The notes beneath the pieces are model-generated. The model ran no database searches. It was given only the letters and a program-made list of their open reading frames with translations, and was not told where the DNA came from. Of a stretch of DNA of 64,000 bases, positions 16,488 to 39,319 are shown one piece after another. Positions within the stretch are counted from its first letter, which is position 1. Every line of letters begins with the position of its first letter. A program made the position numbers and the translations under genes. The DNA comes from Pseudomonas viridiflava (lineage in GTDB: Bacteria > Pseudomonadota > Gammaproteobacteria > Pseudomonadales > Pseudomonadaceae), in NCBI RefSeq assembly GCF_900601905.1, contig NZ_UWFA01000383.1, positions 62,001 to 126,000 of the forward strand. The letters are read 5' to 3'.

Positions 16488-18434
16488 TCAGGTCTTGAAG
16501 CGCCTGACCAGCCCATCCAGTTCGCTGGACAGCGCCGCCAGGCTGCGCGAATCCGCTCGCGCCGACTCTGCCAGCTCGGCCACCAACTGCGCATCGCCAT
16601 GGATCTGGCTGATGTGGCGGTTGATGTCTTCAGCCACGTGGTGCTGTTCTTCAGCGGCAGTAGCGATCTGCGTGTTCATGTCGCGAATTACGTCCACCGA
16701 CTCGCGAATCAGGCCAAAGCTGCTGCGCGCCTGACTGATTTTCTCCACCGATTGCTGCGACACGCTAAGGCTGGCGTTCATCTGTTGGGTGACCGAAGAC
16801 GTACGGCGTGCCAGCGTACCTAGCAGGTTGTCGATCTCGGCAGTGGAATCGGCTGTGCGCTTGGCCAGGGCCCGAACTTCATCGGCGACCACGGCAAACC
16901 CGCGCCCTTGTTCACCTGCGCGGGCCGCTTCAATGGCCGCGTTAAGGGCCAGCAGGTTGGTCTGTTCGGCGATGGAGCGGATGGTGTCGAGGATCGACTG
17001 AATCGCGTTGCTGTCTTTTTCCAGCTGCACCATGGCGGTAGCAGACTGGGAGATCTCCGTGCTCAGTTGATCAACGCTGGCGACAGCGTCGTCGATCTGG
17101 CGCTGGCCTTCACGGGCCTGGCGCTGACCGTTATCGGCCGAGTCAGCGGCCTGGCTGCAGGAGCGGGCGACTTCGTTGGCGGTGGCGACCATTTCGTGGA
17201 ACGCGGTGGAAACCATGTCCACGGCTTCGCGCTGGCGCCCGGCGGCGTCGGCCATGTTGTTCGACACCTGGGTCGAGCTGGTGGAGGTGTCGAGGATCTT
17301 GTGCGCCGCCTGACCAATGCTCTGGATCAGGTTGCGAATGGCCGCCAGGAATTTGTTGAACCAGTTGGCCAGTTGGGCGGTTTCGTCGTTGCCGCGCACA
17401 TCCAGGTTGTGGGTCAGGTCGCCTTCACCCTGAGAAATGCCTTCCAGACCGCTGGCCACACTGCGGATCGGCCGCACGATCAGCGAAGCGAAGCTGGCGC
17501 CGATAATCGCGAACACCAGCGCCAGGACCGCGGCGATCACCCCAATCAGCCAGGTCAGGCGCGTGGCCGAACTCATGACCTCATCCTGTTTGATCAAACC
17601 GATGAAGTTCCAGCCCAGTTGCTCGGAAGGGAATACGTTGGCCATGTAGCGCTCGCCATCGAGTTCGACTTCGACCAACCCGCTGCTGACCTTGGCCAGT
17701 TCGGCATAGCCCGCGCCCAGATCAGCGATCTTCTTGAAGTTGTGCTCGGGTTTGCGAGGGTCGACCAGGATGTTGCCGCTTTTTTCCAGCAGCATCAGGT
17801 AACCGCTTTCGCCCAGCTTGATCTGTTTGACGATGCTGGTCAGTTGCTTGAGGGTCACGTCAATGCCCACCACGCCGCCAGGGTTGCCCAGACCGTTGGA
17901 AATGGTGCGCCCGGTGTTAACCATGACCGCGTCGTCCGCCGCCCAATAGTAGGCATCGCTGCGTACTACTTTGCCAGGGTTGGCCAGCGCGGCCTTGTAC
18001 CACGGGCGCACGCGTGGGTCGTAATCACCGAAATTCTGGCCGTCCGGCCATGGCACATAGCTGCCATTGGCCAGTCCGTAAGAAATGTAAGCGTAGGCAG
18101 GGTGGCTGACGCCCACTCGGTTGAACAGGGCAATGATGCTCTTGTCAGTCTCAGATTGCGGAGCCTTCTGCTCAGCCGGGGTCATGAAGCTTTTCAGCCC
18201 GGTGCCCGCGCCCGTCACCAACGGGTTGGCCGCGAGGTATTCGACGTTCTGGCTGATGCCGTCAAAGAACAGTTGCATGGCATTGGCGACCTGACGGATC
18301 TCCCGTCCACTGCTGTCGACAAAGCCCTTGGTCGCATCGCTGCGCAAATTGATGACCACGATGCTGGCCACGACAATGATCGGTAGACACGCGATAACCG
18401 CAAATGCCCACGTCAGTTTCTGTTTGATATTCAT
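16488..18434 (-). CDS. Methyl-accepting chemotaxis protein with a dCache_1 sensor
   Basis: A 648-residue transmembrane chemoreceptor. TM1 is near residues 10-30. A periplasmic double-Cache domain spans about 35-280, with its characteristic [14 protein letters not shown] and [13 protein letters not shown] segments. TM2 is near 290-310, followed by HAMP and a cytoplasmic hairpin with the conserved tip [20 protein letters not shown]. dCache sensors bind small ligands such as amino acids, amines or organic acids, and this one's ligand is not evident. The C-terminus lacks a CheR-binding pentapeptide. ATG at 18434 follows GGAG at close spacing. It is an isolated gene flanked by a REPIN downstream. 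Confidence 0.93.
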
Positions 18435-18749
18435 CAACGCTCCGATTGCAGTTCTGGCTCACGCCCCAGGCCTGTGCCGAGGGTGGTTTTGGCAGTGACG
18501 TACAAGTGCTTCTAATTGTATTTGTGGTATCCGGCTATCGGCGGCGCGGCGGGCTTCTTGAAGGGCGCGCAGCACGATGTGTACAAACGGTGGCAGGGTG
18601 GGTTCAGGCATTTCGTCGGCATGTACAGCAACTGGCCGGAACGGCTGGCGTGGGTTTCGATCCACAGAACTGACCGTGGCGTCATGCAGGCGTGGTTTTC
18701 GCAACGGTCAGCAGTCCATCGAACCATCACTTTTCAATGAGGTGCCGAC
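18435..18749. other. Intergenic stretch without a supported gene
   Basis: The 315 bases between the chemoreceptor and the DUF892 gene carry open frames of 70-80 codons on both strands. The longest plus-strand one (18516-18740) reads GFLKGAQHDVYKRWQGGF and WPERLAWVSIHRTDRG. None has a clear ribosome site or recognised family. The coding potential is uncertain, and the region must also hold both promoters. Confidence 0.4.
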
Positions 18750-20801: not shown

Positions 20802-21320
20802 TCAACCAACCCCATGATAAGCCCGGTCGAAATACACCAGCCCCGCCGCTTCCTTCTGGCGACTCAACGCCAGCACTTCGCAGAACAGAATGTCATGGGT
20901 GCCGACGCTCACGGTCTGGCTCACCCGGCAATCGAACGAGGCCGCGGCACCTTCCAGCACCGGTGAACCGGACACCCAGGTGGCCCATTGCGCGGCGGCG
21001 AAGCGCTCGGCCATCGGCGTCTTGCCACCGAACAAATTGGACAGCGCCTGCTGCTCGTGGCTCAGGGTGTTGACGCACAACGACGCGTTGGCGGTCAGCG
21101 CGGCATGCACCGACGCCGAGCGATTCAGGCACACCAGCAGGGTCGGCGGAGAATCGGTCACGCTGCACACCGCGGTAGCGGTGAAGCCGCAGCGTCCATG
21201 GGGGCCATCGGTTGTGACCACGTTGACTGCCGCAGCCAGGCTGGCCATGGCGTCACGGTAGTCCTGTTGGGCGATGGGCAGCAGCGTCTGGGCCACGGCG
21301 AGCAGTTCGCAAGCTTGCAT
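20802..21320 (-). CDS. rutF: RutF flavin reductase for pyrimidine monooxygenase
   Basis: A 172-residue flavin reductase of the split-barrel FMN-binding family. FRDAMA-like entry ([20 protein letters not shown]), [20 protein letters not shown] and the late FDRAYHGVG motif fit RutF. It supplies reduced FMN to the RutA oxygenase using NADH. Its start has a GGAG site and lies 14 bases after rutD, so it closes the operon rutABCDF. In E. coli a rutE gene separates rutD and rutF; here there is no space for it. Assignment rests on family motifs plus operon position. Confidence 0.92.
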
Positions 21321-21334
21321 GGGGGTATCTCCGT

Positions 21335-22129
21335 TCAGGCCTGGCTGGCCGATGACTGGCGGGTTAAATAGTCAAGCAGTACACGGTTGAAGGGCTCTAC
21401 ATCGCTGACACTTGACGCATGGCCGCCGTATTCGAGCAGCACTAATTCAGCCGCAGCGAGCGTGTCGGCCAGATGTTGCGAACGCTGCCACGGCACCAGC
21501 ATGTCGTCGCGGTTGGCGATCAGCAGCGTCGGGGTTTGAATGCTGGCCAGGCGATCTTCAATATCGAACGCCTGCAATGCTGCAATCCGCCGCAACAGAT
21601 TGTCGGTATCAGGAAAGTGCGCCAGTGCATGGGCTTCGTCTTCTGCCAGCTGCGCGCTGTGTTCGGCGATCCAGTCGGCGGGGTATAAAAACAGTGCCTG
21701 GGCCTGTACATACGCGGCCGGGCCGCTGTCGCGCAGCAGGTGTTTGCGCACCGCAAAGCAACGGGCGCTGTGCGGGTTCGGGCTGCTCCAGGCATTGATC
21801 AAAACCATGCTTTGCAGCAACTGCGGCCGTTGCAGGGCCAGTTCAAGGCCGACCAGGCCGCCCAGCGCATGGCCGATGAAGTGGCACTGTTGAACGCCAA
21901 TGCGATCAAGCAACTCCAGCAGCTCGCCCGCCATGCTCGCAATCGAATAGTCCTCTGCCAGTATCGCCGGGCTGCGGCCAGTGCCCGCCTGATCGTAGAC
22001 CACCACGCGATACTGTTCTTCCAGCACCGGCAACTGCGGAGCCCAGAATCGGGTGGAACCGCCAAGCCCGGAACTCAAGACCAGCGTCGGCGCGTTGCTG
22101 GCCGGGTTGCCGAGGATTTCGTAATGCAT
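21335..22129 (-). CDS. rutD: RutD, alpha/beta-hydrolase-fold aminoacrylate hydrolase
   Basis: A 264-residue alpha/beta hydrolase matching RutD in length and sequence ([57 protein letters not shown]). It speeds hydrolysis of 3-aminoacrylate to malonic semialdehyde and ammonia. The nucleophile elbow reads GHALGG. The usual Ser is Ala, as I recall for RutD relatives, while the late His (GGHAS) remains. The gene lies between rutC and rutF on the same strand. Confidence 0.9.
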
Positions 22130-22182: not shown

Positions 22183-22566
22183 TCAGCCGATGTGGGCGAT
22201 GCTGGCGATTTCAATCAGCGCCTCGGGTTTCACCAGGCCGCACTGGATGCAATAGCGCGCAGGTTTTTCCCCGGCGAAATATTCGGCGTAGACCTCGTTG
22301 ACCTTGGCGTAGTCGGCCCAGTCCTTGATCATGATCATGTTGAAGGTGACGTCATCCATCGTGCCGCCAGCGGTTTCAATCACGCTTTTGATGGTCTCCA
22401 GCACATGCCGGGTCTGGGCCGTGGCATCGCCGACGTGCACCACGTTGTTGTCCTTGTCGAAGGGCAGGGTGCCGGACACATACAGCACACCATCGGCCAT
22501 GGAGCCGGGTACGAACGGCGCGATGGGTTTGCTGGTACCGGCTGGAATGATCGCTTTTTTGCTCAT
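22183..22566 (-). CDS. rutC: RutC, Rid-family aminoacrylate-forming enzyme of pyrimidine degradation
   Basis: A 127-residue YjgF/YER057c/UK114 (Rid) protein. Family-diagnostic segments are [20 protein letters not shown], the [20 protein letters not shown] helix and the C-terminal [20 protein letters not shown] with the conserved active-site Arg. In E. coli RutC acts on the aminoacrylate intermediate made from the uracil ring after RutA and RutB. Rid proteins form trimers in the cytoplasm. It lies between rutB and rutD. Confidence 0.93.
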
Positions 22567-22590: not shown

Positions 22591-23318
22591 TTAAACGGTC
22601 TGGAAAGTGCTGCAGAACTCATCGACGCTGGAGACCCAGCCAAAAAACGTCTCGATGTTGAACAATGCCGCCTGCTGCGCGAACGCAGGGCCCGCCTGAT
22701 GGGTCGCATCGGCTAGTACCACGCCGAAGTATTCGAGGAAGAAACCGTCCCGCAGGGTGGATTCCACGCAGACATTGGTGGCGATGCCTGTGAACACCAG
22801 GTTGCGAATGCCACGGCTGCGCAGCACGCTGTCGAAGTTGGTATTGAAGAAGCCGCTGTAGCGGGTTTTCGGCAATACGATGTCGCCTGGCTGGGGTTGC
22901 AGTTCGTCCACCAACTGATAATCCCAGCCGCCCTTGGCCAGCAACGTACCTTGCAGTTCCGGACGCTTGCGCATGGTTTTCAGGGCGTTGGATTTGTGCC
23001 AGTTAGGCGATCCGGGCCCACCGGCTTCTACATAGTCCGAGTCCCAGCCGTTCTGGAAAAAGATCACCTGAATGCCTGCCGCTCGCGCCGCCGTCAGGGC
23101 TTTCTGAATGCTGGCGATGACCGGGCCGGTGCTGCTGACATCAAAACCTGCCAGATCGAGATAACCGCCAGCAGTGGAGTAGGCGTTCTGCATGTCGATG
23201 ACGATCAGTGCTGTCTCACTGGCTTTAAGGCTCAGTGCTTCTGGCCGGGCGGGCAGTTCGCGGGCAGCGGCGGGGGACTCCGGCAGCAGGTAGCCGGACA
23301 CGGATGCAGGTGCATTCA

Positions 23319-23319
<1 letters not shown>
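22591..23319 (-). CDS. rutB: RutB, ureidoacrylate/peroxyureidoacrylate amidohydrolase
   Basis: A 242-residue isochorismatase-like cysteine hydrolase. The catalytic triad is visible as Asp in [20 protein letters not shown], Lys in [20 protein letters not shown] and Cys in [20 protein letters not shown]. RutB removes the ureido group from ureidoacrylate formed after ring cleavage, giving aminoacrylate, carbamate and ammonia. Its ATG overlaps the rutA stop by one base (TGATG), so the two are translationally coupled. Confidence 0.95.
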
Positions 23320-24401
<1,082 letters not shown>

Positions 24402-24543: not shown

Positions 24544-24559
24544 CAGACCATTTGGTCTA
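24544..24559. promoter_or_regulatory. RutR-type operator upstream of rutA
   Basis: CAGACCATTTGGTCTA contains the perfect inverted repeat GACCA-TT-TGGTC of the RutR consensus TTGACCANNTGGTCAA. It lies about 145 bases before rutA and 235 before the divergent rutR. RutR is released from such sites by uracil or thymine in E. coli. Recognition here is inferred from match and context. Confidence 0.8.
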
Positions 24560-24790: not shown

Positions 24791-25519
24791 GTGAACGTGA
24801 ACAACAAACCCCCAGCGAAAACCGTCAAAGCCAAGCCTGCAGAGAAGGGCAAAGGCACCCGGGCGGCCAGTGCTTCGACGGTCAATCGGCGTCTGCGTCT
24901 GATCGAAGGCAAGCGCACGGTGATCCTGGAGGCGGCACTGGAGATCTTTTCCCGCTTTGGTCTGCACGGCACCAGCCTGGATCAAGTGGCGAGCATGGCT
25001 GATGTGTCCAAGACCAATCTGCTTTATTACTTCGCCAGCAAGGAAGAGCTCTACACCAGCGTACTGCGCCAGTTGCTGGATGTCTGGCTCAAGCCGCTGC
25101 GTGGTTTCAGTGCCGAGCAGGATCCGATCGATGCGATCAGCGACTACATCCGCGTCAAGCTGGAACTGTCTCGCGACCATCCCGCCGAGTCGCGGCTGTT
25201 CTGCCTCGAAATCATGCAAGGCGCGCCGTTGATGCTCGCTGAGCTGGAGCAACCGCTGCGGGATATCGTTGAAGCCAAGGTCAGCGTGATTCAAGGCTGG
25301 ATAGAAGCAGGCAAGCTGGCGCCGGTGGAACCGCACCACCTGATTTTTTCGCTCTGGGCCACCACCCAGCATTACGCCGACTTCGCCAGCCAGATCAATG
25401 CCGTGACCGGCAAGACTCTTGCTGATCCTGAATTCTTTGCCCAGACCCTGGAAAACATCCAGGCGCTGATTCTCAATGGCATTCGTCCGCGGGCTCAAGA
25501 AACGGACCCACCGCCATAG
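24791..25519 (+). CDS. rutR: RutR, TetR-family pyrimidine-responsive regulator
   Basis: A 242-residue TetR-family protein closely similar to RutR. The helix-turn-helix is SLDQVASMADVSKTNLLYYF. The RutR ligand domain follows with SRLFCLEIMQGAPLMLAELE, KLAPVEPHHLIFSLWATTQH and DPEFFAQTLENIQALILNGI. In E. coli it represses rutA and is relieved by uracil or thymine. It starts with GTG at 24791, or a second GTG two codons on, after a Lys-rich tail longer than in E. coli. It is divergent from rutABCDF, and a matching operator lies between. A second likely target is the next operon. Confidence 0.93.
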   Translation: MNVNNKPPAKTVKAKPAEKGKGTRAASASTVNRRLRLIEGKRTVILEAALEIFSRFGLHGTSLDQVASMADVSKTNLLYYFASKEELYTSVLRQLLDVWLKPLRGFSAEQDPIDAISDYIRVKLELSRDHPAESRLFCLEIMQGAPLMLAELEQPLRDIVEAKVSVIQGWIEAGKLAPVEPHHLIFSLWATTQHYADFASQINAVTGKTLADPEFFAQTLENIQALILNGIRPRAQETDPPP

Positions 25520-25742: not shown

Positions 25743-25758
25743 CGGACCATTTGATCTG
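25743..25758. promoter_or_regulatory. Second RutR-like operator, upstream of the oxygenase/ABC importer operon
   Basis: CGGACCATTTGATCTG has the GACCA half-site, TT centre and TGATC second half, one base from the perfect palindrome found upstream of rutA. It lies about 140 bases before the oxygenase start, a distance like that of the first box to rutA. The match suggests RutR controls this operon too. Confidence 0.6.
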
Positions 25759-25897: not shown

Positions 25898-26911
25898 ATG
25901 ACCCTGCAATCTGTACCCATCATCGATCTGGCACCGTTTTTTTCCGGTGAGCCTGAGGGCAAGGCCGCCGTGGCGCGCAAGGTCAGTCAGGCCTGCAAGG
26001 ACATTGGTTTTCTGGTGATCACCCATCACCAGATTCCTGCCGAGCTGATTCAGCGGGTGTCCACCCTGACTCGTGCATTCTTCGATCTGCCCTTGGCCCA
26101 GAAGCGCAAAGTCGACCGGCCCAGCCCTGAGATGGTGCGCGGCTACAGCGCGATCGCTGAAGAAAGCCTGTCCTATTCCCTGGAAGAAAGCGCCCCGGGG
26201 GATCTGAAAGAATCCTTCTCTATCGGCCCCAGCGACGTGCCGGAAGACGACTACTACCACAACGCAATCGCCGGTTCTCATTTCGCGCCCAACGTCTGGC
26301 CCCCTGAAACCCTGCTGCCGGGTTTTCAGCAGGCCTACCGCGAATACTTCACGGCGATGAGCGATCTGGCGGCGTCGATGATGCGCATCTTTGCCTTGGC
26401 CCTTGAGCTGGACGAAGACTATTTCGACAAGACCATCGACCGCCACATCAGCATGTTCCGCAGCCTGAGCTACCCGGACATCAAGTCGCAGGTTGAAGCC
26501 GGGCAGATGCGTGCCAGCGCCCACACCGATTACGGCAGCATGACCATCGTCCGTCCAGACAGCGCGCTGGGCGGTTTGCAGGTGCGCAATCAGTCGGGGG
26601 AGTGGGTGGAGGTGCCGTATGTCGAAGACGGTTTCGTGGTCAATATTGGCGATCTGATGATGCTCTGGACCAATGACCGCTGGATTTCCACCTTGCACCG
26701 GGTGGTCAATCCGCCGCTGGAAAGTGAAACCGACAACCGCCGCCAGTCTCTGGTGTTTTTCCATCAGCCCAACTACGACGCTTTGATCGAATGCCTGCCG
26801 GGTTGCCTGTCCGGGGGCCAACAACCTCGTCATGCGCCGGTCACGTCTGGCGACCATCTGCTGTCGAAATTCGTCAAGCAGACCACCTTCGGCGGCAGCA
26901 AGGTGGCCTGA
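25898..26911 (+). CDS. 2-oxoglutarate/Fe(II)-dependent oxygenase (isopenicillin N synthase-like)
   Basis: A 337-residue cytosolic dioxygenase with the two-domain plant-type layout. An N-terminal DIOX_N segment comes first (VPIIDLAPFFSG). A cupin core follows with iron ligands H209 and D211 (HTDYGS) and H267 (STLHRVV), and the 2-oxoglutarate-binding RRQS at R282/S284. The substrate is not determined by motif. Thymine 7-hydroxylase belongs to this superfamily, and the RutR-like box, the adjacent rut genes and the base-importer genes favour a pyrimidine or modified base. ATG at 25898 has a GGAG site; a GTG 13 codons upstream is unlikely. Its TGA overlaps the next gene's ATG by one base. Confidence 0.88.
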   Translation: MTLQSVPIIDLAPFFSGEPEGKAAVARKVSQACKDIGFLVITHHQIPAELIQRVSTLTRAFFDLPLAQKRKVDRPSPEMVRGYSAIAEESLSYSLEESAPGDLKESFSIGPSDVPEDDYYHNAIAGSHFAPNVWPPETLLPGFQQAYREYFTAMSDLAASMMRIFALALELDEDYFDKTIDRHISMFRSLSYPDIKSQVEAGQMRASAHTDYGSMTIVRPDSALGGLQVRNQSGEWVEVPYVEDGFVVNIGDLMMLWTNDRWISTLHRVVNPPLESETDNRRQSLVFFHQPNYDALIECLPGCLSGGQQPRHAPVTSGDHLLSKFVKQTTFGGSKVA

Positions 26912-27297
26912 TGAACAACCTGTCCTACGTCAATGTGTTCGCTCGCGACATTGTCGCCCTCAGCGATTTTTACGCACAGCTGTTTGGCTTCGCGGAAATC
27001 GAGGCAATCCGCTCACCGATCTTTCGTGGCCTGGACACCGGCAAGTCGTGCATCGGTTTCAACGCCCCTCAAGCGTACGAACTGCTGGGGCTTGGCGACT
27101 ATGCCGACAGCGTCGGGGTGAAGTTTCTGCTCAATATCGACGTCACGTCTCAGGCCGAGGTCGAGCGTCTGGTGCCGCTGGCGCAGGCCAGGGGCGCGAC
27201 CCTGATCAAGGCACCTTACCTGACGTATTACAACTGGTACCAGGCCGTGCTGCTGGATCCGGAGCAGAACGTGTTCCGTATCAATTTCATGCTTTGA
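26911..27297 (+). CDS. VOC (glyoxalase/bleomycin resistance-like) family protein
   Basis: A 128-residue vicinal-oxygen-chelate fold protein, one module of two beta-alpha-beta3 units (LSYVNVFARDIVALSDFYAQ and VKFLLNIDVTSQAEVERLVP). The C-terminal NWYQAVLLDPEQNVFRINFM has the typical Asp-Pro-x-x-Asn turn. VOC proteins use a divalent metal for lyase, isomerase or dioxygenase chemistry, and some only bind ligands. Clear metal ligands cannot be assigned from the short sequence. It is coupled by a TGATG overlap to the 2OG oxygenase and lies 45 bases before the importer genes, so it likely acts on the same imported compound or its oxidation product. Confidence 0.8.
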   Translation: MNNLSYVNVFARDIVALSDFYAQLFGFAEIEAIRSPIFRGLDTGKSCIGFNAPQAYELLGLGDYADSVGVKFLLNIDVTSQAEVERLVPLAQARGATLIKAPYLTYYNWYQAVLLDPEQNVFRINFML

Positions 27298-27342: not shown

Positions 27343-28434
27343 ATGCTCAACAGATTTCTAAAGCACAGCCTGGCTGCGGCGGTATTGCTCGGGCTGGCGA
27401 ACAGCGCATCGGCAGAGGGCCTGACCCTGGAAAAGCCGGCCAAGATTGCCATGGTCTACATCAGCCCTCGCAATGACGGCGGCTGGACTCAGGCGTTTGA
27501 CGAGTCCCGGGTCAAGCTGGAAAAAGAGCTCGGCACCAAAATTCAGTACGTCGAAAGCGTGCCGGAAAATGCTGCCGCCATTACCCCCGTCGTTGATCGG
27601 CTGATTTCCCGGGGCGCCAACGTGATCATCGGGACCGCGTTCGGCTACTCCGACACTTTCCTGGAGCTGGCGAAAAAGTATCCGAAGATTGCCTTCCTCA
27701 ATGGCTCGGGCACCACCAAAGCGCCGAACCTGGAATCCTTCTATGGCCGCACGTATGAAAGCCAGTACCTGTGCGGCATGGCGGCAGGCGCCGCTTCGAA
27801 AACCGGCAAGCTGGGCTTCGTCGCCGCCAACCCCTTCGGCCAGGTCAACTGGACCGTCAACGCCTTCGAGCTGGGCGCGCGACAGATCAACCCCAACGCT
27901 ACCGTCAACGTGATCTACACCGGTGCCTGGAACGACCCGGTCAAAGAACGCGCCGCCGCCATGGCCCTGATCGACAACGGCGCCGACGTGATCGGCCAGC
28001 ACGTGGACAGCCCGACCCCGCAGATTGTCGCTCAGGAACGCGGCGTTTTGGGCACCGGTCACCATCGCGACCTGAGCGAGTTCGCGCCCAAGGCCACCAT
28101 CTGTTCATCGGCCTGGGTCTGGGACCGCTTTCTCGGCCCTGAGCTGAAAAAGGTCATTGCCGGTAACTGGGTACCCAACCCCAATGGCGCGTTGCTGTCC
28201 ATGGAGCAGGGCGGCACCGATATCACCCTGACCGCTGGCGAGCGCATTTCGCCGGAGAACAAAAAGAAGATCGAACTGGCCCGCGAAGAGCTTATGAACG
28301 GAGAAAAGATCATCTACAGTGGCCCGATGAGTGATCGCGACGGCAAAGAACGTATTGCGGCTGGCAGCCATATGTCCGACGGCGACTTGTGGAAAATGGA
28401 CTGGTTTGTCAAAGGCGTGGCCTCCCAGCAATGA
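27343..28434 (+). CDS. BMP-family ABC transporter substrate-binding protein (nucleoside/base type)
   Basis: A 363-residue periplasmic binding protein with signal peptide ending near SASAEG. The BMP (basic membrane protein) family features are visible: KIAMVYISPRNDGGWTQAFD, DRLISRGANVIIGTAFGYSD, YGRTYESQYLCGMAAGAASK and HVDSPTPQIVAQERGVLGTG. Characterised BMP proteins bind nucleosides or purines. It is the first of four coupled genes for a complete importer. Its stop overlaps the ATPase start (ATGA). Confidence 0.9.
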   Translation: MLNRFLKHSLAAAVLLGLANSASAEGLTLEKPAKIAMVYISPRNDGGWTQAFDESRVKLEKELGTKIQYVESVPENAAAITPVVDRLISRGANVIIGTAFGYSDTFLELAKKYPKIAFLNGSGTTKAPNLESFYGRTYESQYLCGMAAGAASKTGKLGFVAANPFGQVNWTVNAFELGARQINPNATVNVIYTGAWNDPVKERAAAMALIDNGADVIGQHVDSPTPQIVAQERGVLGTGHHRDLSEFAPKATICSSAWVWDRFLGPELKKVIAGNWVPNPNGALLSMEQGGTDITLTAGERISPENKKKIELAREELMNGEKIIYSGPMSDRDGKERIAAGSHMSDGDLWKMDWFVKGVASQQ

Positions 28435-29945
28435 GTCAGGCGAGCGCGATCCAACTCACCGGCATCAGCAAATCATTCGACGGCTTTCAGGCCCTGACTG
28501 ACGCGCATTTCACCGGCAAGTGGGGTGAGGTGCATGCGTTGCTTGGCGAGAACGGCGCCGGTAAGTCTTCACTGATGAATATCGCCGCCGGATTGTATGC
28601 GCCGCAGAGCGGGTCGCTGCTCATTGATGACAACCCGGTGCGGCTTGGCGGCCCCAAGGACGCCAGCCGTCATCGTATCGGCATGGTTCATCAGCATTTC
28701 AAACTGGTACGGCCGTTTACCGTCGCCCAGAACATTCTGCTCGGCCTGACTGATTCGCCGGGGCAGGGCAGCTACAGCAAGCGGCTGCTGGTCCTTGAAC
28801 AGCAGATCAGCGCCAAGGCTCAGGAACTGGGCTTTGCCATTGATCCCCGGCAAACCATCGAGAACCTGTCGATTGCCGAGCAGCAGCGGGTGGAAATCCT
28901 CAAGGTCCTGCTGGCTGGCGCGCGGATCCTGATTCTTGACGAGCCCACGGCCGTGCTCACCGATCAGGAGGCTGAACGCCTGCTGACCACCGTGCAGTCG
29001 TTTGCCCGCCAGGGCGCGGCGGTGATTCTGGTCACCCACAAGATGTCCGACGTGAAGCGTTACGCCGATCGGGTCACGGTCATGCGCGGCGGCCGGACCG
29101 TGGAAACCCTCGACCCCAAGACCGTTTCGGTGGAGCAATTGGTGCGGCTTACGGTGGGTGAGTCGCAAGCTGCGGGCGAGCAGGCCAGGGCGCCAGCGGG
29201 TGAGGCACGGCTGACGCTGCGTAACCTGCGCTCGCCGCCGGGTCAGGGGCCGTTGGCGGGGGTCGACATGACCTTGCACGCCGGGCAGATCTACGGCATT
29301 GCGGGGGTCGGCGGCAATGGTCAGAGCGAACTGGCCAACGCGTTGATGGGCCTGCCTCAGGCCGTGGAAGGTGAAATGCTGCTGCAAGGGTTTGGCGATT
29401 TGTGTGGCGCGCCTGCCGAGCGCAGGCGTGATCTGCGCATTGCGTGCATCCCCGCTGATCGCTACGGCGCAGCGCTGGCCGGTTCGCTGTCGGTGGCTGA
29501 GAACTTCGGCATCGGCCAGATTCACAGCGGGCGCTATGGATCGTTCTTTCGGCTGCGCGGCAAACGTATGGAACAGGACGCCACCGAGGCCATCAGCGCG
29601 TTCGACGTTCAGGGCGTGCGCTCCTTGCAACAGAAAGCGGCTCTGCTGTCCGGGGGCAACGCGCAGAAACTGGTGATCGCCCGGGAATTCAGCCGCGATC
29701 CACAGCTGGTGCTGGTGCACAGCCCCAGTCGCGGCCTGGACGCCAAGGCCACGGCTGCAGTGCATGCACGGCTGCGTGCGGCACGCGCTGCCGGTGCGGC
29801 GGTGCTGGTGATCAGCGAAGACCTGGATGAAGTGCTGATGCTGGCAGACCGCATCGGCGTCATGAACAGCGGCCGCATCGTCGCAGAATTCGAATGCCCG
29901 GCAGACCGCCAGGCCATCGGCAAGGCCATGGTGAGTCATGACTGA
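28431..29945 (+). CDS. Nucleoside/base-type ABC transporter ATP-binding protein (tandem ABC domains)
   Basis: A 504-residue protein with two ABC cassettes, as in the sugar/nucleoside CUT2-like group. The first has Walker A LLGENGAGKSSLMN, signature LSIAEQQRVEILKVL and Walker B ILILDEPTAVL. The second is degenerate: GVGGNGQSELANAL replaces Walker A, LSGGNAQKLVIARE keeps the signature, and VLVHSPSRGLD lacks the usual Walker B carboxylate pattern. The asymmetry is typical of this subfamily. It starts at ATGA overlapping the BMP stop and ends inside the next permease start, so all four importer genes are one operon. Confidence 0.93.
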   Translation: MSQASAIQLTGISKSFDGFQALTDAHFTGKWGEVHALLGENGAGKSSLMNIAAGLYAPQSGSLLIDDNPVRLGGPKDASRHRIGMVHQHFKLVRPFTVAQNILLGLTDSPGQGSYSKRLLVLEQQISAKAQELGFAIDPRQTIENLSIAEQQRVEILKVLLAGARILILDEPTAVLTDQEAERLLTTVQSFARQGAAVILVTHKMSDVKRYADRVTVMRGGRTVETLDPKTVSVEQLVRLTVGESQAAGEQARAPAGEARLTLRNLRSPPGQGPLAGVDMTLHAGQIYGIAGVGGNGQSELANALMGLPQAVEGEMLLQGFGDLCGAPAERRRDLRIACIPADRYGAALAGSLSVAENFGIGQIHSGRYGSFFRLRGKRMEQDATEAISAFDVQGVRSLQQKAALLSGGNAQKLVIAREFSRDPQLVLVHSPSRGLDAKATAAVHARLRAARAAGAAVLVISEDLDEVLMLADRIGVMNSGRIVAEFECPADRQAIGKAMVSHD

Positions 29946-31071
29946 CCTTACAACCCAAGCAATCGGGCAATCTGCTGTGCCCACCCGAGCCCGACGCCAA
30001 CCACTGCTGGCCCGGCGTTACACCCTGGAAATCCGCCAGCAACTGGCCTGGCACTGGCAGGCACTGATCATCGGCCTGGCGCTGCTGGTCGGGCTGGGTA
30101 TTTCGGCGGTGATTCTGGTGGGCGCGGGTGTACCGGCCACCGAGCTGCTCAATGAATTCGTGGTCTTGACGGTACTCGACCCACAGAACTTCAAGGCGGT
30201 GCTGTTTCAGGCGGCACCGATGATTCTCGTCGGACTGGCCGGATGCATGGCGTTTCGTGCGCGCTTCTGGAACCTGGGGCTGGAAGGCCAGATGATCTGG
30301 GGCGGCATCGGTGCGACCGCCATCTCGCTGTTCGAAGTCGGCCCTGAATCGACTCGCTTGCCGTTGATGCTGGCGACGGCAATGGTCTGCGCCATGCTCT
30401 GGACGGTGGCCCCGGTGCTGCTCAAATTGCGGCTCAAGGTCAACGAGATCATCTCGACACTGATGCTCAATTACATCGCAGCCAACTTTCTGCTGCATCT
30501 GCTGTACGGCAGCTGGAAAGACCCGCGCGACAACTTTCCGTACTCGCCAGCCTTGCGCAGTTTTGAGCGGTTGCCGGATCTGCTCGACGGCTATAACGCG
30601 GCAATCGTCCTGGCGATCATCGTGACCCTGTTCGCGTTGTGGTTCATCGGTATTTCCCGGGCGGGTCTGTACTTGCGTTTCGTCGATGCCAACCCCCGCG
30701 TGGCCGGGGCAGTGGGCGTGCCCGTGGGCAAAATGATCATCGGCACGGTGCTGCTTTCCGGTGCGCTGGCGGGTATCGCCGGGTTTATCGTCACCGCCGG
30801 GCAGGAAGGGCGCCTGACCCAGTCGTTCTATCAGGGCTATGGCTTTTCCGGGATTCTGATCGCCTTTCTGGCCCGCAATAACCCGCTCGCCGCCACCATC
30901 GTCGCGCTGTTGGTGGCGCTGCTGTTCGTGGCCGGACGCAGCTTGCAGGTGTTCTACCAGATACCGTTTTCCATGGTGCAACTGATCCAGGCCATCCTGG
31001 TGATTTGCGTGGCCTCGTCGGATTTTTTCATTCGCCATCGCATGTGCGTGATTCAGAAGGCAGAGCAGTAA
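29938..31071 (+). CDS. ABC importer permease 1 (nucleoside/base type)
   Basis: A 377-residue inner-membrane permease of the BPD_transp_2 family. It has about nine helices and the conserved EIISTLMLNYIAANFLLHLL and SRAGLYLRFVDANPRVAGAV segments typical of BMP-dependent nucleoside transporters. It pairs with the next gene's permease and the double ATPase. Its ATG overlaps the ATPase gene by 8 bases. Confidence 0.9.
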   Translation: MTDLTTQAIGQSAVPTRARRQPLLARRYTLEIRQQLAWHWQALIIGLALLVGLGISAVILVGAGVPATELLNEFVVLTVLDPQNFKAVLFQAAPMILVGLAGCMAFRARFWNLGLEGQMIWGGIGATAISLFEVGPESTRLPLMLATAMVCAMLWTVAPVLLKLRLKVNEIISTLMLNYIAANFLLHLLYGSWKDPRDNFPYSPALRSFERLPDLLDGYNAAIVLAIIVTLFALWFIGISRAGLYLRFVDANPRVAGAVGVPVGKMIIGTVLLSGALAGIAGFIVTAGQEGRLTQSFYQGYGFSGILIAFLARNNPLAATIVALLVALLFVAGRSLQVFYQIPFSMVQLIQAILVICVASSDFFIRHRMCVIQKAEQ

Positions 31072-32009
31072 TGGACATGATCGCCAACTGGCTGGGCAAT
31101 TCCCCGGACTTCGCCGTACCGTTCGCACTCGCCGCTTTGGGGCTGATCCTCACCGAGCGCGCAGGCGTCCTGGCGCTGGGAGCCGAAGGCTTGATGCTGG
31201 TGGGTGCGCTGGTCGGCATCGGCGCGCAGTTGAGCTTTGGCACACCGATGATCTCGCTGGTCCTGGCGATGCTTGCCGCCAGCGTGGTGTCCTTGCTGTT
31301 CGCCCTGATGGTGCTGGTGATGCGCATCAATCAGGTCATCGCCGGGCTGGCGCTGGTGTTCTTCTGCCAGGGGCTGACGGGATTGCTCGGCACCCTGCTG
31401 GAATGGACCAACCATCCGGTGACGGGCTTGTCGGCGGTGGCGCTCTGGCCGCTGTCCGAGCTGCCGTTGATTGGCAAGGTGTTCATCCAGAATCCGCTGG
31501 TTTACCTCACGCCGCTGATTTTCTTCGCCGTGGTCTGGTTTCTGTATCGCAGCAACGCAGGCCTGCGCTTGCGGGCGGTGGGTGAAAACCCGCAAGCGGC
31601 GGACGCGGCAGGTATCTCCGTGCTCGGTTACCGACTGGCGGCAATTCTGGCCGGTGCCGCACTGATCGGCCTGGCGGGCGGTTACATCTCGGTGCTCAGC
31701 ACCAAAATGTGGATCGCCGACATGACCGGCGGTCGCGGCTGGATTGCCGTCTCGCTGGTGATCTTCGCTCGTTGGTCACCCTGGCGCGCCCTGGCCGGTG
31801 CGGTGCTGTTCGGCTGCATTGAAGCACTGATCCCGCAACTGGCCTCCACCGGGATCCGCTTGCCTCAGTACTTCGTTTTGATGACGCCCTATGCCGTTAC
31901 GTTGCTGGTCATGATCTGGGTCGCCATGGGCATGCGCGGATCGAACCAGGGCTCGGGTAGCCAGCCCGGAGCATTGGGGGAGCCGTTTATCCGGGAAGAG
32001 CGGCGGTAG
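31071..32009 (+). CDS. ABC importer permease 2 (nucleoside/base type)
   Basis: A 312-residue permease, the second subunit of the importer. Helices with LTERAGVLALGAEGLMLVGA, LRAVGENPQAADAAGISVLG and TGGRGWIAVSLVIFARWSPW match the family. Its ATG overlaps the stop of permease 1 (TAATG). It ends the operon of oxygenase, VOC, BMP, ATPase and two permeases. About 190 bases follow before the GAF gene. Confidence 0.9.
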   Translation: MDMIANWLGNSPDFAVPFALAALGLILTERAGVLALGAEGLMLVGALVGIGAQLSFGTPMISLVLAMLAASVVSLLFALMVLVMRINQVIAGLALVFFCQGLTGLLGTLLEWTNHPVTGLSAVALWPLSELPLIGKVFIQNPLVYLTPLIFFAVVWFLYRSNAGLRLRAVGENPQAADAAGISVLGYRLAAILAGAALIGLAGGYISVLSTKMWIADMTGGRGWIAVSLVIFARWSPWRALAGAVLFGCIEALIPQLASTGIRLPQYFVLMTPYAVTLLVMIWVAMGMRGSNQGSGSQPGALGEPFIREERR

Positions 32010-32203: not shown

Positions 32204-32731
32204 ATGTGGCGTAATCGACCCCTTCGAGTGATAAAAGACGTGACAGCAATCCTATTGAGTGCGGCTGAAATAGCGGCTATCGCCGAAGTCGAGTCGACCT
32301 CTGACATTTTGCGGCTGATGACGCGGCTGACGCATTTGCGTTTCGCCGCCATCGCCAAGGTAACGGAACAGCGTTGGGTCGCCTGTGCGGTGGACGATGA
32401 GATCCATTTTGGTGTCGGCCCCGGTGACGAACTGGCTATTGAATTGACCATTTGCAACGAGGTCCGAAGGGACCGTTCAGCGGTGGTGATTTCCTGCGTC
32501 AGCGATGACCCGCGCTTCAAGGACCATCCGCTGCCCAAGCTCTATGGGTTCGAAAGCTATCTGTCGCTGCCGATCATGCTCAGTGACGGCTCGTTCTTCG
32601 GCACGCTATGCGGGCTTGACCCGTTGCCAGCCAAGCTCGATGACCCTGATCTGATTCAGACGCTGGAAATCTTCGCCCGCCTGATTGGCACAACGCTGGA
32701 CTTGCATGCTCGCGTCGTAGCGTCGGTCTAG
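32204..32731 (+). CDS. Stand-alone GAF-domain protein
   Basis: A 175-residue protein with a single GAF domain: IAEVESTSDILRLMTRLTHL, FAAIAKVTEQRWVACAVDDE, LCGLDPLP and the last helix. It resembles the input GAF of histidine kinases and diguanylate cyclases, but no output domain follows before the stop. GAF domains bind small molecules or cyclic nucleotides. An in-frame GTG at 32228 could be the true start. It lies between the importer operon and a chemoreceptor with no overlap to either, so it looks orphan. Confidence 0.7.
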   Translation: MWRNRPLRVIKDVTAILLSAAEIAAIAEVESTSDILRLMTRLTHLRFAAIAKVTEQRWVACAVDDEIHFGVGPGDELAIELTICNEVRRDRSAVVISCVSDDPRFKDHPLPKLYGFESYLSLPIMLSDGSFFGTLCGLDPLPAKLDDPDLIQTLEIFARLIGTTLDLHARVVASV

Positions 32732-32964
32732 AAACGTTTTGCAATGAATCCCTCTGCCGGGCTGTCTTGTCCCGGCAACCCCTCTTGAATCAAGCCGCTG
32801 CGCCGGATGCATCAGGTCACCGGCCTGGCCGTGCGTGGCCGATTTGTTCCGGTGGCTGAAACGTTTTCGCTACAATGATGTCACTTTGATGCCACGCATT
32901 ATGGATGTGCGTCCAAGAGAGCAAGGTCGCCCTCACACCTTCGAATCAATCCGGGACGGTTTTT

Positions 32965-34863
32965 ATGCTCACAGCGGTTAACAAAACACTCGCCAATATC
33001 AGTGTCAAAGCGAAACTTTCACTGGGTTTCGCCCTGGTGCTGATATTGACCTGCCTGATTGCCTTCACCGGTTGGTCGGGTTTGCAATCGCTGGCAGAGC
33101 GTGGCGACAAGGTCGCGGAGATTTCGCTGCTCAATGAGCAGGCCCGGGATCTGCGGATTGCCCGCCTGAGCTACATGCTCAACCCGGACACCGAGCGCGC
33201 CACCAACGTCACCACCACACTGGGCAAACTGCAGGCTCAGACCGACAAGATGAAAACCCTGTTTACCACGGGCGCAAGTCTGGGGTTGATTGGCGAGGTG
33301 AGCGGTGCCGTCGGCATCTACAAGACCCACTTCAATGAGTTTGTGCAGGCTACCCAGGGCCGTGATGCGGCACGCGCTGCCATCAACGCTCAGGTTGAGA
33401 CGATGACGCTCGATCTGGAGAAACTCCAGGATCAGGGGCGCGAATCCGACGCTGATGCTCGCGCGATGACGACTCAGCAACGCCTCATTCAACAGGCGCG
33501 TTCCCAGACCCAGACGTACATCTACAGCGCCAAGTCCGAGTATCTGCCTGCTGCGCTGGCAGCGATTGATGCGGCGCGCAATAACCTGAAGAACCTCACT
33601 CAGTTCGCACCGCAGGCGACCCAGGGCATTGATCAGTCGCTGGTGGCGTTTCGCACAGCGGTGGGCCAGTTCACCGATAGCGTGAACAAGGCCGCACAAG
33701 TGCAGATCGCACTCACCGACGACGTGACCCGTTTGCTCGACGCCAGCAAGCAGATGACGGCCAACCAGATCGTGCTGCGTACCAACGATGTACATGAGGC
33801 CAATCTGTTGCTGAGCGGCGCAACGCTGGCGGCGTTGCTGTTCGGCGTCCTTGCGGCGTGGGTGATCACCGGCCTGATCGTCGGGCCACTGATGCAGACC
33901 TTACGCAATGCCGAGTTGGTGGCGGCTGGCGATTTGAGCCAGGACGTGGTCGTGACCCGTCGTGATGAACTGGGCCAGTTGCAAACCAGCATGCAGCGCA
34001 TGACTGTCAACCTTCGTCAGTTGATCGGTGGTATCCGCGACGGTGTCGTGCAGATCGCCAGCGCTGCCGAGCAATTGTCTGCCGTCACTGAGCAGACCAG
34101 CGCCGGGGTCAACAGCCAGAAGGTCGAGACCGACCAGGTGGCCACGGCCATGAATGAAATGACCGCGACGGTGCAGGAAGTCGCACGCAATGCCGAGGAC
34201 GCCTCCGAAGCGGCCGTCAATGCCAGCCGCGAGGCGAAGCAGGGCGATGAAGTGGTGACCCAGGCGATGCAGCAGATCGAGCGTCTGGCCGATGAGGTGG
34301 GCCATTCCACCGAAGCCATGAACGACTTGCAGACTGAAAGCGACAAGATCGGCAGCGTGCTGGACGTGATCAAGGCGGTGGCCCAGCAAACCAATCTGCT
34401 GGCTCTCAACGCCGCGATTGAAGCGGCACGGGCCGGTGAGGCCGGGCGCGGTTTCGCGGTGGTAGCTGATGAAGTGCGCAGCCTGGCCCAGCGTACCCAG
34501 ACCTCTACCGAAGAGATCGAAGGCCTGATCAGCGGCTTGCAGACCGGCACCAAGCGGGTCGCGACCATCCTCGAAAACAGCCGGGCGTTGACCGACAGCA
34601 GCGTGCAACTGACCCGCCGTGCGGGAACATCGCTGGAGAGCATCACGCGTTCGGTATCGTCCATCGAGTCGATGAACCAGCAAATCGCCGCCGCTGCCGA
34701 ACAGCAGAGCGCGGTGGCCGAGGAGATCAACCGCAGCGTACTCAACGTGCGCGACATCTCTGAACAGACCTCCGCCGCCAGCGAAGAGACGGCCGCGTCC
34801 AGTGTTGAACTGGCACGCCTGGGCGTGCATCTGCAAACCATGGTAGGTAAGTTCAAGGTTTAA
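32965..34863 (+). CDS. Methyl-accepting chemotaxis protein with an HBM (McpS-like) sensor
   Basis: A 632-residue transmembrane chemoreceptor. TM1 is near residues 16-38. A long all-helical periplasmic helical bimodular domain follows ([20 protein letters not shown]). TM2 comes next ([20 protein letters not shown]), then HAMP and a signalling hairpin with [23 protein letters not shown] receptors such as P. putida McpS sense TCA intermediates and acetate; the ligand here is not proved. It has no CheR-tethering pentapeptide. ATG at 32965 was chosen because the upstream in-frame ATG adds 20 non-conserved residues. Confidence 0.92.
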
Positions 34864-36112: not shown

Positions 36113-37369
<1,257 letters not shown>

Positions 37370-37417
37370 TTATCCGTAGCATCTTCTGGATTTTTCATGG
37401 GTGGTGGAGGGCGGGTC

Positions 37418-38281
37418 ATGGCAGGCAGATCAGTCCCAGTGTTCAAGCTGTACGGCGAAACCACGCTCTGGCCGACGCCGGATTTGCTGCATTGCGAGTC
37501 GATCCCGGAGCGTAGCCAGTTGCACGGGTGGGAAATCCAGACCCATTCTCATAGCGACCTGGTGCAGCTGCTTTACGTGCAATCGGGTCAGGCCACTCTG
37601 CAGGTCGAAGGTGCCACGCGGCAGGTGCAGAGCGCCGTGTTACAAGTCATTCCGGCACTGAGCGTGCATCGCTTCAGCTTTGCCCCGGATATTGAGGGTT
37701 ACATCCTCAGCCTGGCGCAGCCGCTGGCAGAGCAGTTGAACGCAGCGCTGGCGACTGCGGCGTTGAATCTTGCCCAGTGCCACCCCGTCGATAACGAGCA
37801 GCGCCAGCAGTTGGACCCGCTTTTCGCCGCCCTCAGCGATGAATACGCAGAGCACCGACCCGGCAGGGACACGATGCTGCACGCGCTGATCAGCATGCTG
37901 TCGATCTGGCTGGATCGTCGCAGCCTCGGGTTATCCGGTGCGCAAGTGCCCGCCCCGGAGCGCGGTCGTGAACACTTGCAGGGTTTCAGTCGCTTGGTGG
38001 GTGAGCATTTTCGGCAGCATTGGTCCATCGAACGGTACGCGGCGCAGCTGAGCATCAGCGCCGCGCACTTGAATAGCCTGTGCCGACGCTTCACCGATCA
38101 ATCGGCATTGCAGATCATCAATCAGCGCCTGTTGCTGGAAGCCAAGCGCGATCTGGTGTACACCACCCTGACGATCAATCAGGTCTCGGACCGGCTGGGG
38201 TTTTCGGAACCGGCGTATTTCTCGCGGTTCTTCAAACGCTTCACCGGCAGCTCGCCGAGGGCGTTTCGTGGTACTCGGTAA
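37418..38281 (+). CDS. pobR: PobR, AraC-family activator of pobA
   Basis: A 287-residue AraC/XylS-type regulator. An N-terminal cupin-like sensor comes first (HGWEIQTHSHSDLVQLLYVQ). The C-terminal two helix-turn-helix motifs are in AAQLSISAAHLNSLCRRFTD and INQVSDRLGFSEPAYFSRFF. In Pseudomonas, PobR of this family activates pobA in response to 4-hydroxybenzoate. It is divergent from pobA with a 120-base intergenic promoter region, which supports that role. ATG at 37418 has GGAGG at good spacing; a nearby earlier ATG (37397) is less likely. Confidence 0.88.
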   Translation: MAGRSVPVFKLYGETTLWPTPDLLHCESIPERSQLHGWEIQTHSHSDLVQLLYVQSGQATLQVEGATRQVQSAVLQVIPALSVHRFSFAPDIEGYILSLAQPLAEQLNAALATAALNLAQCHPVDNEQRQQLDPLFAALSDEYAEHRPGRDTMLHALISMLSIWLDRRSLGLSGAQVPAPERGREHLQGFSRLVGEHFRQHWSIERYAAQLSISAAHLNSLCRRFTDQSALQIINQRLLLEAKRDLVYTTLTINQVSDRLGFSEPAYFSRFFKRFTGSSPRAFRGTR

Positions 38282-38389
38282 GTCACTGGAGAAACCCCCA
38301 ATGGAGAAACCCATAGCTGTGGGAGCGGTGCTCACTCGGCTAAGCTGCTTTATGCTGGCTGGCAGCTCCTTTGAGCAAGGCAATACGCA

Positions 38390-39319
38390 TTGAACATCGA
38401 CACCCGCATCAAATTCCGTCACCTGGTGTGCTTTCTTGAAGTCGCACGCCAGGGCAGTCTGGCGCGCGCTGCGGATCAGTTGGCGATCAGCCAGCCAGCC
38501 TTGTCCAAGACCCTCAAGGAACTGGAAAGCCTGCTGGAAACCCAGTTGTTCCTGCGCAGCAAAAGCGGCGCGGCGTTGACCGAGGCGGGTGTGGCTTTTT
38601 TGCGTTTTGCCGGGCCCAGCGTGCAATCGTTGCGCGAAGGGGTGAACAGCCTGCGGTCCGGGGAGCATGAGCCGGTAACGGCCAGGCTGGGCGTGCTCTC
38701 GACCGTCGAGAGCCTGTTGGTGCCGGAAGTGGTGCGCCGTCTGCATGAGCGCCATCCGGCGTTGATCGTCAGCGTCATGACCGGCCCCAGCGCGTATCTG
38801 CTCTCGCAACTGCGGGTTGGCGAACTGGATCTGGTGGTCGGCCGCATGACCGACAGCCCACAAATCCAGGGCCTGACTTTCGAGCACCTGTACAGCGAAT
38901 CAATGACCCTGGTGGTGCGCCGCGATCACCCCTTGCTGCACGCACAGCTGCAGCGCGAAAGCCTGGAAAACTACCCCATGGTCCTGCCGCTGGCCGGAAC
39001 CACCATTCGCAAGTTTGCTGACAGCCTGTTCGTGCAGTGCGGCATCAGCCCGCCGCGCCAACGCCTGGAAACCCTGTCCCTGACGTTGAGCCGCCGCTAT
39101 GTGCAGTGCAGCGATGCCATCTGGATCGCGCCTTTCGATGCCGTTCAACAGGATCTGCACAGTGGTGACTTGCGCGAGCTGGAACTGGGGATCCGCGAAC
39201 CCGGCGGTTCCGTGGGCATTTGCAGCAACCCGGCGCTGCCGCTGTCCCGGGCGGCGCAATGGTGTGTCGACGCGCTGCGCGAAGTCGGCAAGGCCTACGG
39301 CAAGGTGGAGTATCCATAA
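38390..39319 (+). CDS. pcaQ: PcaQ, LysR-family regulator of protocatechuate genes
   Basis: A 309-residue LysR-type activator. The N-terminus IKFRHLVCFLEVARQGSLAR and the helix ADQLAISQPALSKTLKELES fit PcaQ, as do SYVQ-like effector-domain features (LSLTLSRRYVQCSDAIWIAP). PcaQ activates pca genes in response to the pathway intermediate beta-carboxy-cis,cis-muconate. It starts with TTG at 38390 after AAGG at good spacing, with no better start nearby. It reads in the same direction as pcaHG, 115 bases downstream. Confidence 0.9.
   Translation: MNIDTRIKFRHLVCFLEVARQGSLARAADQLAISQPALSKTLKELESLLETQLFLRSKSGAALTEAGVAFLRFAGPSVQSLREGVNSLRSGEHEPVTARLGVLSTVESLLVPEVVRRLHERHPALIVSVMTGPSAYLLSQLRVGELDLVVGRMTDSPQIQGLTFEHLYSESMTLVVRRDHPLLHAQLQRESLENYPMVLPLAGTTIRKFADSLFVQCGISPPRQRLETLSLTLSRRYVQCSDAIWIAPFDAVQQDLHSGDLRELELGIREPGGSVGICSNPALPLSRAAQWCVDALREVGKAYGKVEYP

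Follow-up and report, generated by a model that had tools for sequence, protein, structure and literature searches.

The genome of Pseudomonas viridiflava contains, next to its rut genes, a gene for a 2-oxoglutarate (2OG) and Fe(II)-dependent oxygenase that overlaps with a gene for a protein of the VOC fold, which raises the question of what these two proteins would act on. Uracil breakdown in bacteria proceeds either by the Rut pathway or by reduction and, to our knowledge, the bacterial use of altered pyrimidines, whether they stem from RNA, from DNA or from plants, has been little studied. A first-pass annotation had suggested that the pair may oxidise a modified pyrimidine or nucleoside, such as thymine, and process the product. 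We have followed up this proposal in a stretch of 64,000 nucleotides of P. viridiflava, termed the window, whose positions serve as coordinates. The relevant features are listed with their evidence in brackets.

20802–21320, minus strand: rutF, FMN reductase of the Rut pathway, context (TIGR03615, 260.5 bits, cut-off 254.75)
21335–22129, minus strand: rutD, context (TIGR03611, above cut-off)
22183–22566, minus strand: rutC, context (TIGR03610, above cut-off)
22591–23319, minus strand: rutB, context (TIGR03614, above cut-off)
23319–24401, minus strand: rutA, context (TIGR03612, 694 bits, cut-off 498)
24544–24559, unstranded: predicted RutR-type operator between rutA and rutR, CAGACCATTTGGTCTA (pattern match, 23.3 bits, best of the window)
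24791–25519, plus strand: rutR, TetR-type regulator (NF011584, 302.7 bits, cut-off 230; TIGR03613, 340.5 bits, cut-off 368)
25743–25758, unstranded: predicted RutR-type operator 155 bp upstream of the oxygenase start, CGGACCATTTGATCTG (pattern match, 17.5 bits, second best of the window)
25898–26911, plus strand: 2OG-Fe(II) oxygenase, IPNS/T7H-like, 337 amino acids, ATG start (open reading frame, Pfam, orthologues, structure search)
26911–27297, plus strand: VOC-fold protein, 128 amino acids, free of histidine (open reading frame, Pfam, solved VOC structure 2rbb)
27343–28434, plus strand: BMP/PnrA-type substrate-binding protein of an ABC importer (PF02608, 7e-47; closest solved structures AtzT and 3s99)
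28431–29945, plus strand: ATPase of the ABC importer (PF00005)
29938–31071, alternative start at 29977 possible, plus strand: permease 1 of the ABC importer (PF02653)
31071–32009, plus strand: permease 2 of the ABC importer (PF02653)

The overlap of the pair described at the outset is confirmed by the open reading frames, with the oxygenase gene closing on a TGA codon at 26909–26911 and the ATG of the VOC gene starting at its last base, so that the two share a single nucleotide. Equally, the complete set of residues assigned to iron and 2OG (H209/D211/H267/R282/S284) is found in the translation and invariant in eight orthologues. The pyrimidine context is real, since rutA, B, C, D and F each score above their NCBIfam cut-offs and RutR scores above that of NF011584 (and below that of TIGR03613). 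What had gone unmentioned is that the unit is larger than the pair, which stands at the head of six tightly packed genes on the same strand that also encode a BMP protein, an ATPase and two permeases. This cassette is preceded by rutR and, further upstream, by the divergent rutABCDF genes. The arrangement resembles the Rut system of E. coli in its rutABCDF genes, in rutR and in a RutR-type operator, and differs from it in the rutE-like and rutG-like genes, neither of which was seen within the rut cluster of the window. We know of no 2OG, VOC or BMP genes in the rut operon of E. coli.

To define the conservation of the cassette, we scanned the named genomes with an alignment of eight sequences and retained the best 80 of 381 relatives, which share 67–96% identity and include loci from Pseudomonas, Stutzerimonas, Halopseudomonas, Marinobacter, Variovorax and other genera. 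As closest relatives, these 80 best loci are mutually non-independent, and contig ends were scored as misses in all counts. The VOC gene directly follows the oxygenase gene in 79 of the 80 best loci, the exception being the contig end in L093, and the two genes thus form a conserved unit instead of a chance overlap. Importer genes accompany them in most of these 80 loci (BMP in 67, the ATPase in 65 and each permease in 63), with the complete set of six genes found in 63/80. The rut genes are frequently nearby, with rutA within 10 kb in 44 and rutR in 45 of the 80 best loci, in several gene orders that are either divergent from rut, as in the window, or collinear after rutF (L073–L075, L078–L080, L096 and L097). 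Two isochorismatase-type hydrolases recur in 17 and 16 of these best 80 loci; they are closest to RutB and biuret hydrolase but remain below the NCBIfam cut-offs of these models, as does a YdfG-like dehydrogenase found in 14 loci for its own model. The hydrolases and the dehydrogenase would fit the final steps of pyrimidine breakdown. The oxygenase–VOC pair is found without a BMP gene or rutA nearby in 12 of the 80 best loci, belonging to P. syringae-type Pseudomonas and related bacteria; nine of these 12 contain the first of the two hydrolases. Two genomes of this type from a separate collection (G339 and G367) carry rutA elsewhere. Neither the GAF gene at 32204 nor the chemoreceptor gene at 32905 was retained as a member of the unit, with no GAF relative at 38% identity and relatives of the chemoreceptor in 2/80 of the best loci. 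In broader samples, matches were few, amounting to 5/274 genomes of the class at 1e-60 and 5/398 of the phylum at 1e-15, the own genome included in both cases. No paper on a 2OG-VOC-BMP cassette was found in the open-licence PMC literature. The combination of oxygenase, VOC, BMP and ABC genes is also present on a plasmid from Tistrella, where we observe that the gene after the cassette (L145:15289–16797) resembles AMP nucleosidase from a reading of its sequence.

The link to the Rut pathway is also manifested in the promoter region. RutR boxes are described in PMC10891134 as palindromes of about 16 bp. We built a 16-bp matrix from 22 distinct sites in rutA promoters, using the E. coli consensus as seed, and compared the oxygenase genes with other genes of the same loci after exclusion of promoter regions shared with rutA. 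With starts from the gene finder, sites of at least 12 bits precede 60 of the oxygenase genes in the 80 best loci, compared to 9/1205 other genes and 6/2400 shuffled sequences, and at a threshold of at least 10 bits, the respective counts are 67/80, 25/1205 and 19/2400. If the oxygenase start is instead taken from the protein match, with gene-finder starts retained for the control genes, the numbers increase to 67/80 (at least 12 bits) and 74/80 (at least 10 bits), including seven Variovorax loci where the gene-finder starts are too early. Sites are also found in those of the 80 best loci that have no rutA nearby (26/36 at 12 bits or more and 30/36 at 10 bits or more, with protein-match starts). 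Among the six loci below 10 bits, four contain sites of 7.8–8.4 bits at the usual distance and two (L082 and L090, the latter with 194 bp of upstream DNA) score below 2 bits. In the genome of 5.75 Mb, the exact operator pattern has six occurrences, including the sites at 24544 and 25743, and within the window we count three strand hits versus 0.06 expected. Since strand hits across the genome are no fewer for a reversed control pattern, the pattern alone proves little, and the case for the operator rests on its placing and conservation. Both suggest that RutR would bind at the candidate site ahead of the oxygenase gene. Leyn et al. 2016 have described RutR regulons of 743 genes in 68 genomes (PMC5343134), and the link of the operator to the cassette may already be contained in their gene lists or in RegPrecise.

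All nine control genes that reach 12 bits are from Marinobacter loci and nucleobase-like; these nine are the ones whose identities were inspected among the 25 control genes reaching 10 bits. They encode the 2OG enzymes c70 and c34, the 8-oxoguanine deaminase c49 (above cut-off) and the amidohydrolase c67, which look like further RutR targets, with c70 and c49 counted twice in three loci where they share one divergent promoter.

A relationship to the Rut pathway is further reflected in the distribution of the genes within the genus, where the VOC protein is found in 5/149 and RutA in 13/149 genomes, with RutA present in all five VOC-containing genomes. With the own genome excluded, RutA accompanies 4/4 VOC genomes compared to 12/148 overall, which corresponds to a chance probability of 2.6e-5 if kinship is ignored. 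Conversely, RutA is found without the cassette VOC in 8/13 genomes, and the Rut pathway is thus independent of this protein.

The thymine 7-hydroxylase (T7H) of Neurospora crassa belongs to fungal thymine salvage, and we know of no VOC partner of fungal T7H. The oxygenase of the cassette resembles this enzyme in its fold and in the residues for iron and 2OG. Its sequence matches the Pfam families DIOX_N and 2OG-FeII_Oxy far above their cut-offs, and the HxD...H triad for iron and the RxS motif for 2OG are invariant in 81/81 cassette enzymes. T7H (5c3p, PMC4787775) is its closest solved relative by sequence (2.8e-51, 34.5% identity). An AlphaFold model of the oxygenase (pLDDT 87) again places T7H at the first position, both in Foldseek (5e-35) and in VIA-align (Z 38.7, 2.0 Å over 302 residues), where the next entry outside T7H is 3oox with a Z of 35.0. 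A non-pyrimidine family with a better match, which the first-pass annotation had named as evidence against its proposal, was sought by sequence and fold among solved structures and was not found.

For the substrate pocket, we mapped the residues described for T7H onto the 81 cassette enzymes and a set of paralogues. Equivalents of R190, Y194, Y217 and F292 of T7H, which include its aromatic sandwich, are retained in 81/81 cassette enzymes; because they are also found in nearly all compared paralogues, including those from other contexts, they are not diagnostic and tell little about the substrate. In contrast, the thymine-contacting residues N87, E122 and N294 of T7H are replaced by V, S and Q in 81/81 cassette enzymes. 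As reported for T7H, the single changes N87A and E122A do not severely impair the activity on thymine while reducing that on later intermediates, and N294A leaves thymine activity unaffected (PMC4787775), which weakens the case that these pocket residues make against thymine. In a phylogenetic tree with flagged long branches, T7H groups with the Marinobacter protein c70 (support 96/79) and the cassette enzymes are separated from both (98/93), and the latter look like an orthologous group of their own with a probably flat substrate. The c70 protein (L083:1943–2899, also found in L084 and L088) has 42% identity with fungal T7H and retains N87, and its RutR-type site also serves the divergent gene for the 8-oxoguanine deaminase. 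With these sequence features, it would be a better candidate than the cassette enzyme for a bacterial thymine hydroxylase.

Importers with BMP-family binding proteins often transport nucleosides, and the ability of this family to bind nucleosides as well is a point against a base as ligand. The closest solved relatives of the BMP protein of the cassette are AtzT from Pseudomonas sp. ADP (6pi5), which binds guanine with 110 nM, and 3s99, in which adenine was modelled (PMC6834077). The two positions of AtzT that stack onto the base (Y45 and W194) are both occupied by tryptophan in 67/67 aligned BMP sequences of the cassette. The binding site differs from AtzT in the residues expected for purines, since S97 is replaced by alanine in 66/67 sequences, and the position of E165 is never a glutamate but Q in 41, V in 24 and P in two of the 67 sequences. 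Both S and E are retained in 3s99, in the BMP protein of locus L139 described below and in a BMP paralogue from the own genome (L002). The combination of stacking aromatics with the loss of the purine-type residues is compatible with a non-purine free base as putative ligand.

The VOC protein scores 20.6 bits against the Glyoxalase model PF00903, exactly at the cut-off of 20.6. Over 126 of its 128 residues, it matches the solved VOC structure 2rbb (1e-57), whose title gives no more than the name of the fold. A predicted model (pLDDT 67) was excluded from the fold search. VOC enzymes of the glyoxalase I type coordinate metals by His and Glu ligands. Because the window VOC contains no histidine, and none is found among the invariant columns of 17 VOC sequences, the protein is probably not a metal-dependent VOC enzyme, and the missing ligands also led us to reject an ordinary glyoxalase.

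In the taxonomic family of genome G612, the VOC model matches at 26 places in 20/250 genomes. At 24 of these places, a 2OG gene lies no more than 1.5 kb away, in one case in convergent orientation. Together with the adjacency in 79 of the 80 best of 381 loci, this bears out the earlier assignment of the VOC protein to the oxygenase. Of the two other places, L138 combines the VOC gene with BMP-ABC genes, a hydrolase and rut, with a 2OG gene on the far side beyond rut. In L139 (918–11720), 15 kb of sequence yielded no 2OG gene, and the VOC gene instead resides beside one for a Rieske oxygenase related to NdmA (1.7e-170), along with genes for a second Rieske-type and a GST-like protein, each matched weakly by its model, and for an S-formylglutathione hydrolase and a xanthine permease (both above cut-off). 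Its gene content makes this locus most likely a cluster for the N-demethylation of methylxanthines, and the same is probable for a locus on a plasmid, typed as conjugative, of Komagataeibacter nataicola from a kombucha culture (L143), where the VOC gene follows an NdmA-like gene at about 0.7 kb. The VOC proteins of these two clusters are 33–39% identical to those of the cassette; in an ndm-like cluster on a P. putida plasmid, the annotated VOC protein gave no match to the L139 VOC at 1e-10. Besides the Rieske oxygenase, the Ndm clusters differ from the cassette with its 2OG enzyme in their formaldehyde genes, as no relatives of frmA or fghA were found at 1e-30 in the 80 best of 381 cassette loci. 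Finally, a Rhodococcus plasmid (L144:5170–9384) contains a base permease, two 2OG genes and the VOC gene in a row, and we observe the same succession in a proteobacterium (L004), where the permease is named from a reading of its sequence; by gene content, both would be versions of the cassette with another importer. The VOC family thus appears to accompany oxygenases of either type whose substrates are, or probably are, nucleobases. This association was the least expected result, and from it we infer methyl oxidation as a possible shared chemistry of the oxygenases. In the cassette, processing of the oxygenase product by the VOC protein, the support for which is gene linkage, is possible.

The conserved cassette with its link to rut and a RutR-type operator, the intact cofactor residues of the oxygenase and its T7H-like fold lead us to propose, with a probability of roughly 0.6, that the cassette is a RutR-controlled branch for the import and oxidation of a substituted free pyrimidine base that feeds the Rut pathway. 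In this process, the ABC importer would take up the free base, probably carrying a methyl group or another alteration, which the oxygenase would then oxidise with Fe(II), 2OG and O2, with the flat ring sandwiched by F288 and Y212. The VOC protein would bind the substrate or an oxidised intermediate and aid its conversion to uracil or a different ring amenable to opening by RutA, from which the Rut enzymes would extract the nitrogen. Synteny, the operator and the co-occurrence within the genus thus lend good support from the genome to the pyrimidine role suggested at the outset, and the proposed example of thymine is neither specifically supported nor contradicted, with V, S and Q found at its contact positions. 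In a bolder and considerably more tentative version of this proposal, the VOC proteins would constitute an undescribed metal-free family serving as second component of nucleobase-oxidising oxygenases, either of the 2OG type on pyrimidines or of the Rieske type on methylxanthines. In such systems, the oxygenase would hydroxylate a ring methyl group and the VOC protein would break the resulting hydroxymethyl (hemiaminal) intermediate, in analogy to the lyase that completes peptidylglycine alpha-amidation, and together with the RutR-controlled importer this would define an undescribed route from methylated pyrimidines via uracil into the Rut pathway.

Several other explanations have to be weighed against the proposed branch. 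The enzyme could be an oxidative N-demethylase of N-methylated uracils such as 1- or 3-methyluracil, and thus a 2OG-dependent counterpart of the Rieske enzymes NdmA and NdmB acting on caffeine, with the VOC protein operating on the N-hydroxymethyl intermediate. The proximity of VOC and NdmA-like genes in L139 and Komagataeibacter nataicola argues for this reading, which we consider doubtful but worth serious attention, as the lack of frmA and fghA relatives in the 80 best loci speaks somewhat against it and the NdmA-linked VOC proteins are but distantly related to those of the cassette. We regard it as unlikely that the cassette encodes a bacterial thymine 7-hydroxylase, which would oxidise thymine to 5-hydroxymethyluracil, 5-formyluracil and 5-carboxyuracil; the VOC protein would assist in cleaving off the carbon at C5, leaving uracil. 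T7H being the closest solved relative in sequence and fold, the retained R190, Y194, Y217 and F292 equivalents and the considerable or full thymine activity of the single T7H mutants at N87, E122 and N294 (PMC4787775) are consistent with this idea, as is a title cited in PMC10891134 that terms RutR uracil/thymine-sensing. However, the three contact residues are jointly replaced in 81/81 enzymes, the retained residues are equally present in paralogues from other contexts, T7H groups with c70 in the tree, and inspection (as opposed to a homology search) of the recurring neighbours revealed no candidate for a decarboxylase.

Two further readings appear improbable. The oxygenase might open a nucleoside by 1'-hydroxylation and in this way release uracil from uridine or deoxyuridine taken up by the importer, for which the common role of BMP importers in nucleoside uptake and a BMP-2OG-deaminase-like cluster in the own genome, which would suit a common nucleoside chemistry, could be invoked. 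This is countered by the close relationship of the BMP protein to AtzT and 3s99, both binders of free bases, by the aromatic residues retained at both stacking positions in 67/67 sequences, and by oxygenase–VOC pairs that are found with NCS2 base permeases (annotated as such in L144 and read from the sequence in L004). With a similarly low probability, the cassette would detoxify or salvage a product of the Rut pathway and import no new substrate, as might be concluded from the shared RutR-type control and from the 12 of the 80 best loci that have no importer genes nearby. Here, the complete set of six genes including the importer in 63 of these 80 loci and the presence of RutA without VOC in 8/13 genomes point in the opposite direction.

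If the proposed import-and-oxidation branch is correct, a cassette in which import, oxidation and the Rut pathway are joined by a common operator would contribute to closing the gap in what is known of the bacterial use of altered pyrimidines, assign a substrate class to 2OG oxygenases that have none, provide a job for a VOC family with a solved structure (2rbb) and yield a short and testable list of substrates. A purine-looking counterpart might reside in the own genome at L002 (G000:C333:16199–20134), where genes for a BMP protein, a 2OG oxygenase with 41% identity and a protein named from its sequence as adenosine/adenine-deaminase-like follow each other. The window also holds two chemoreceptor genes, one at 32905–34863 with an HBM sensor domain and one at 16488–18437, and an apparently unrelated aromatic-acid region at 36113–39319 encoding a 4-hydroxybenzoate 3-monooxygenase and a PcaQ regulator, both above cut-off.
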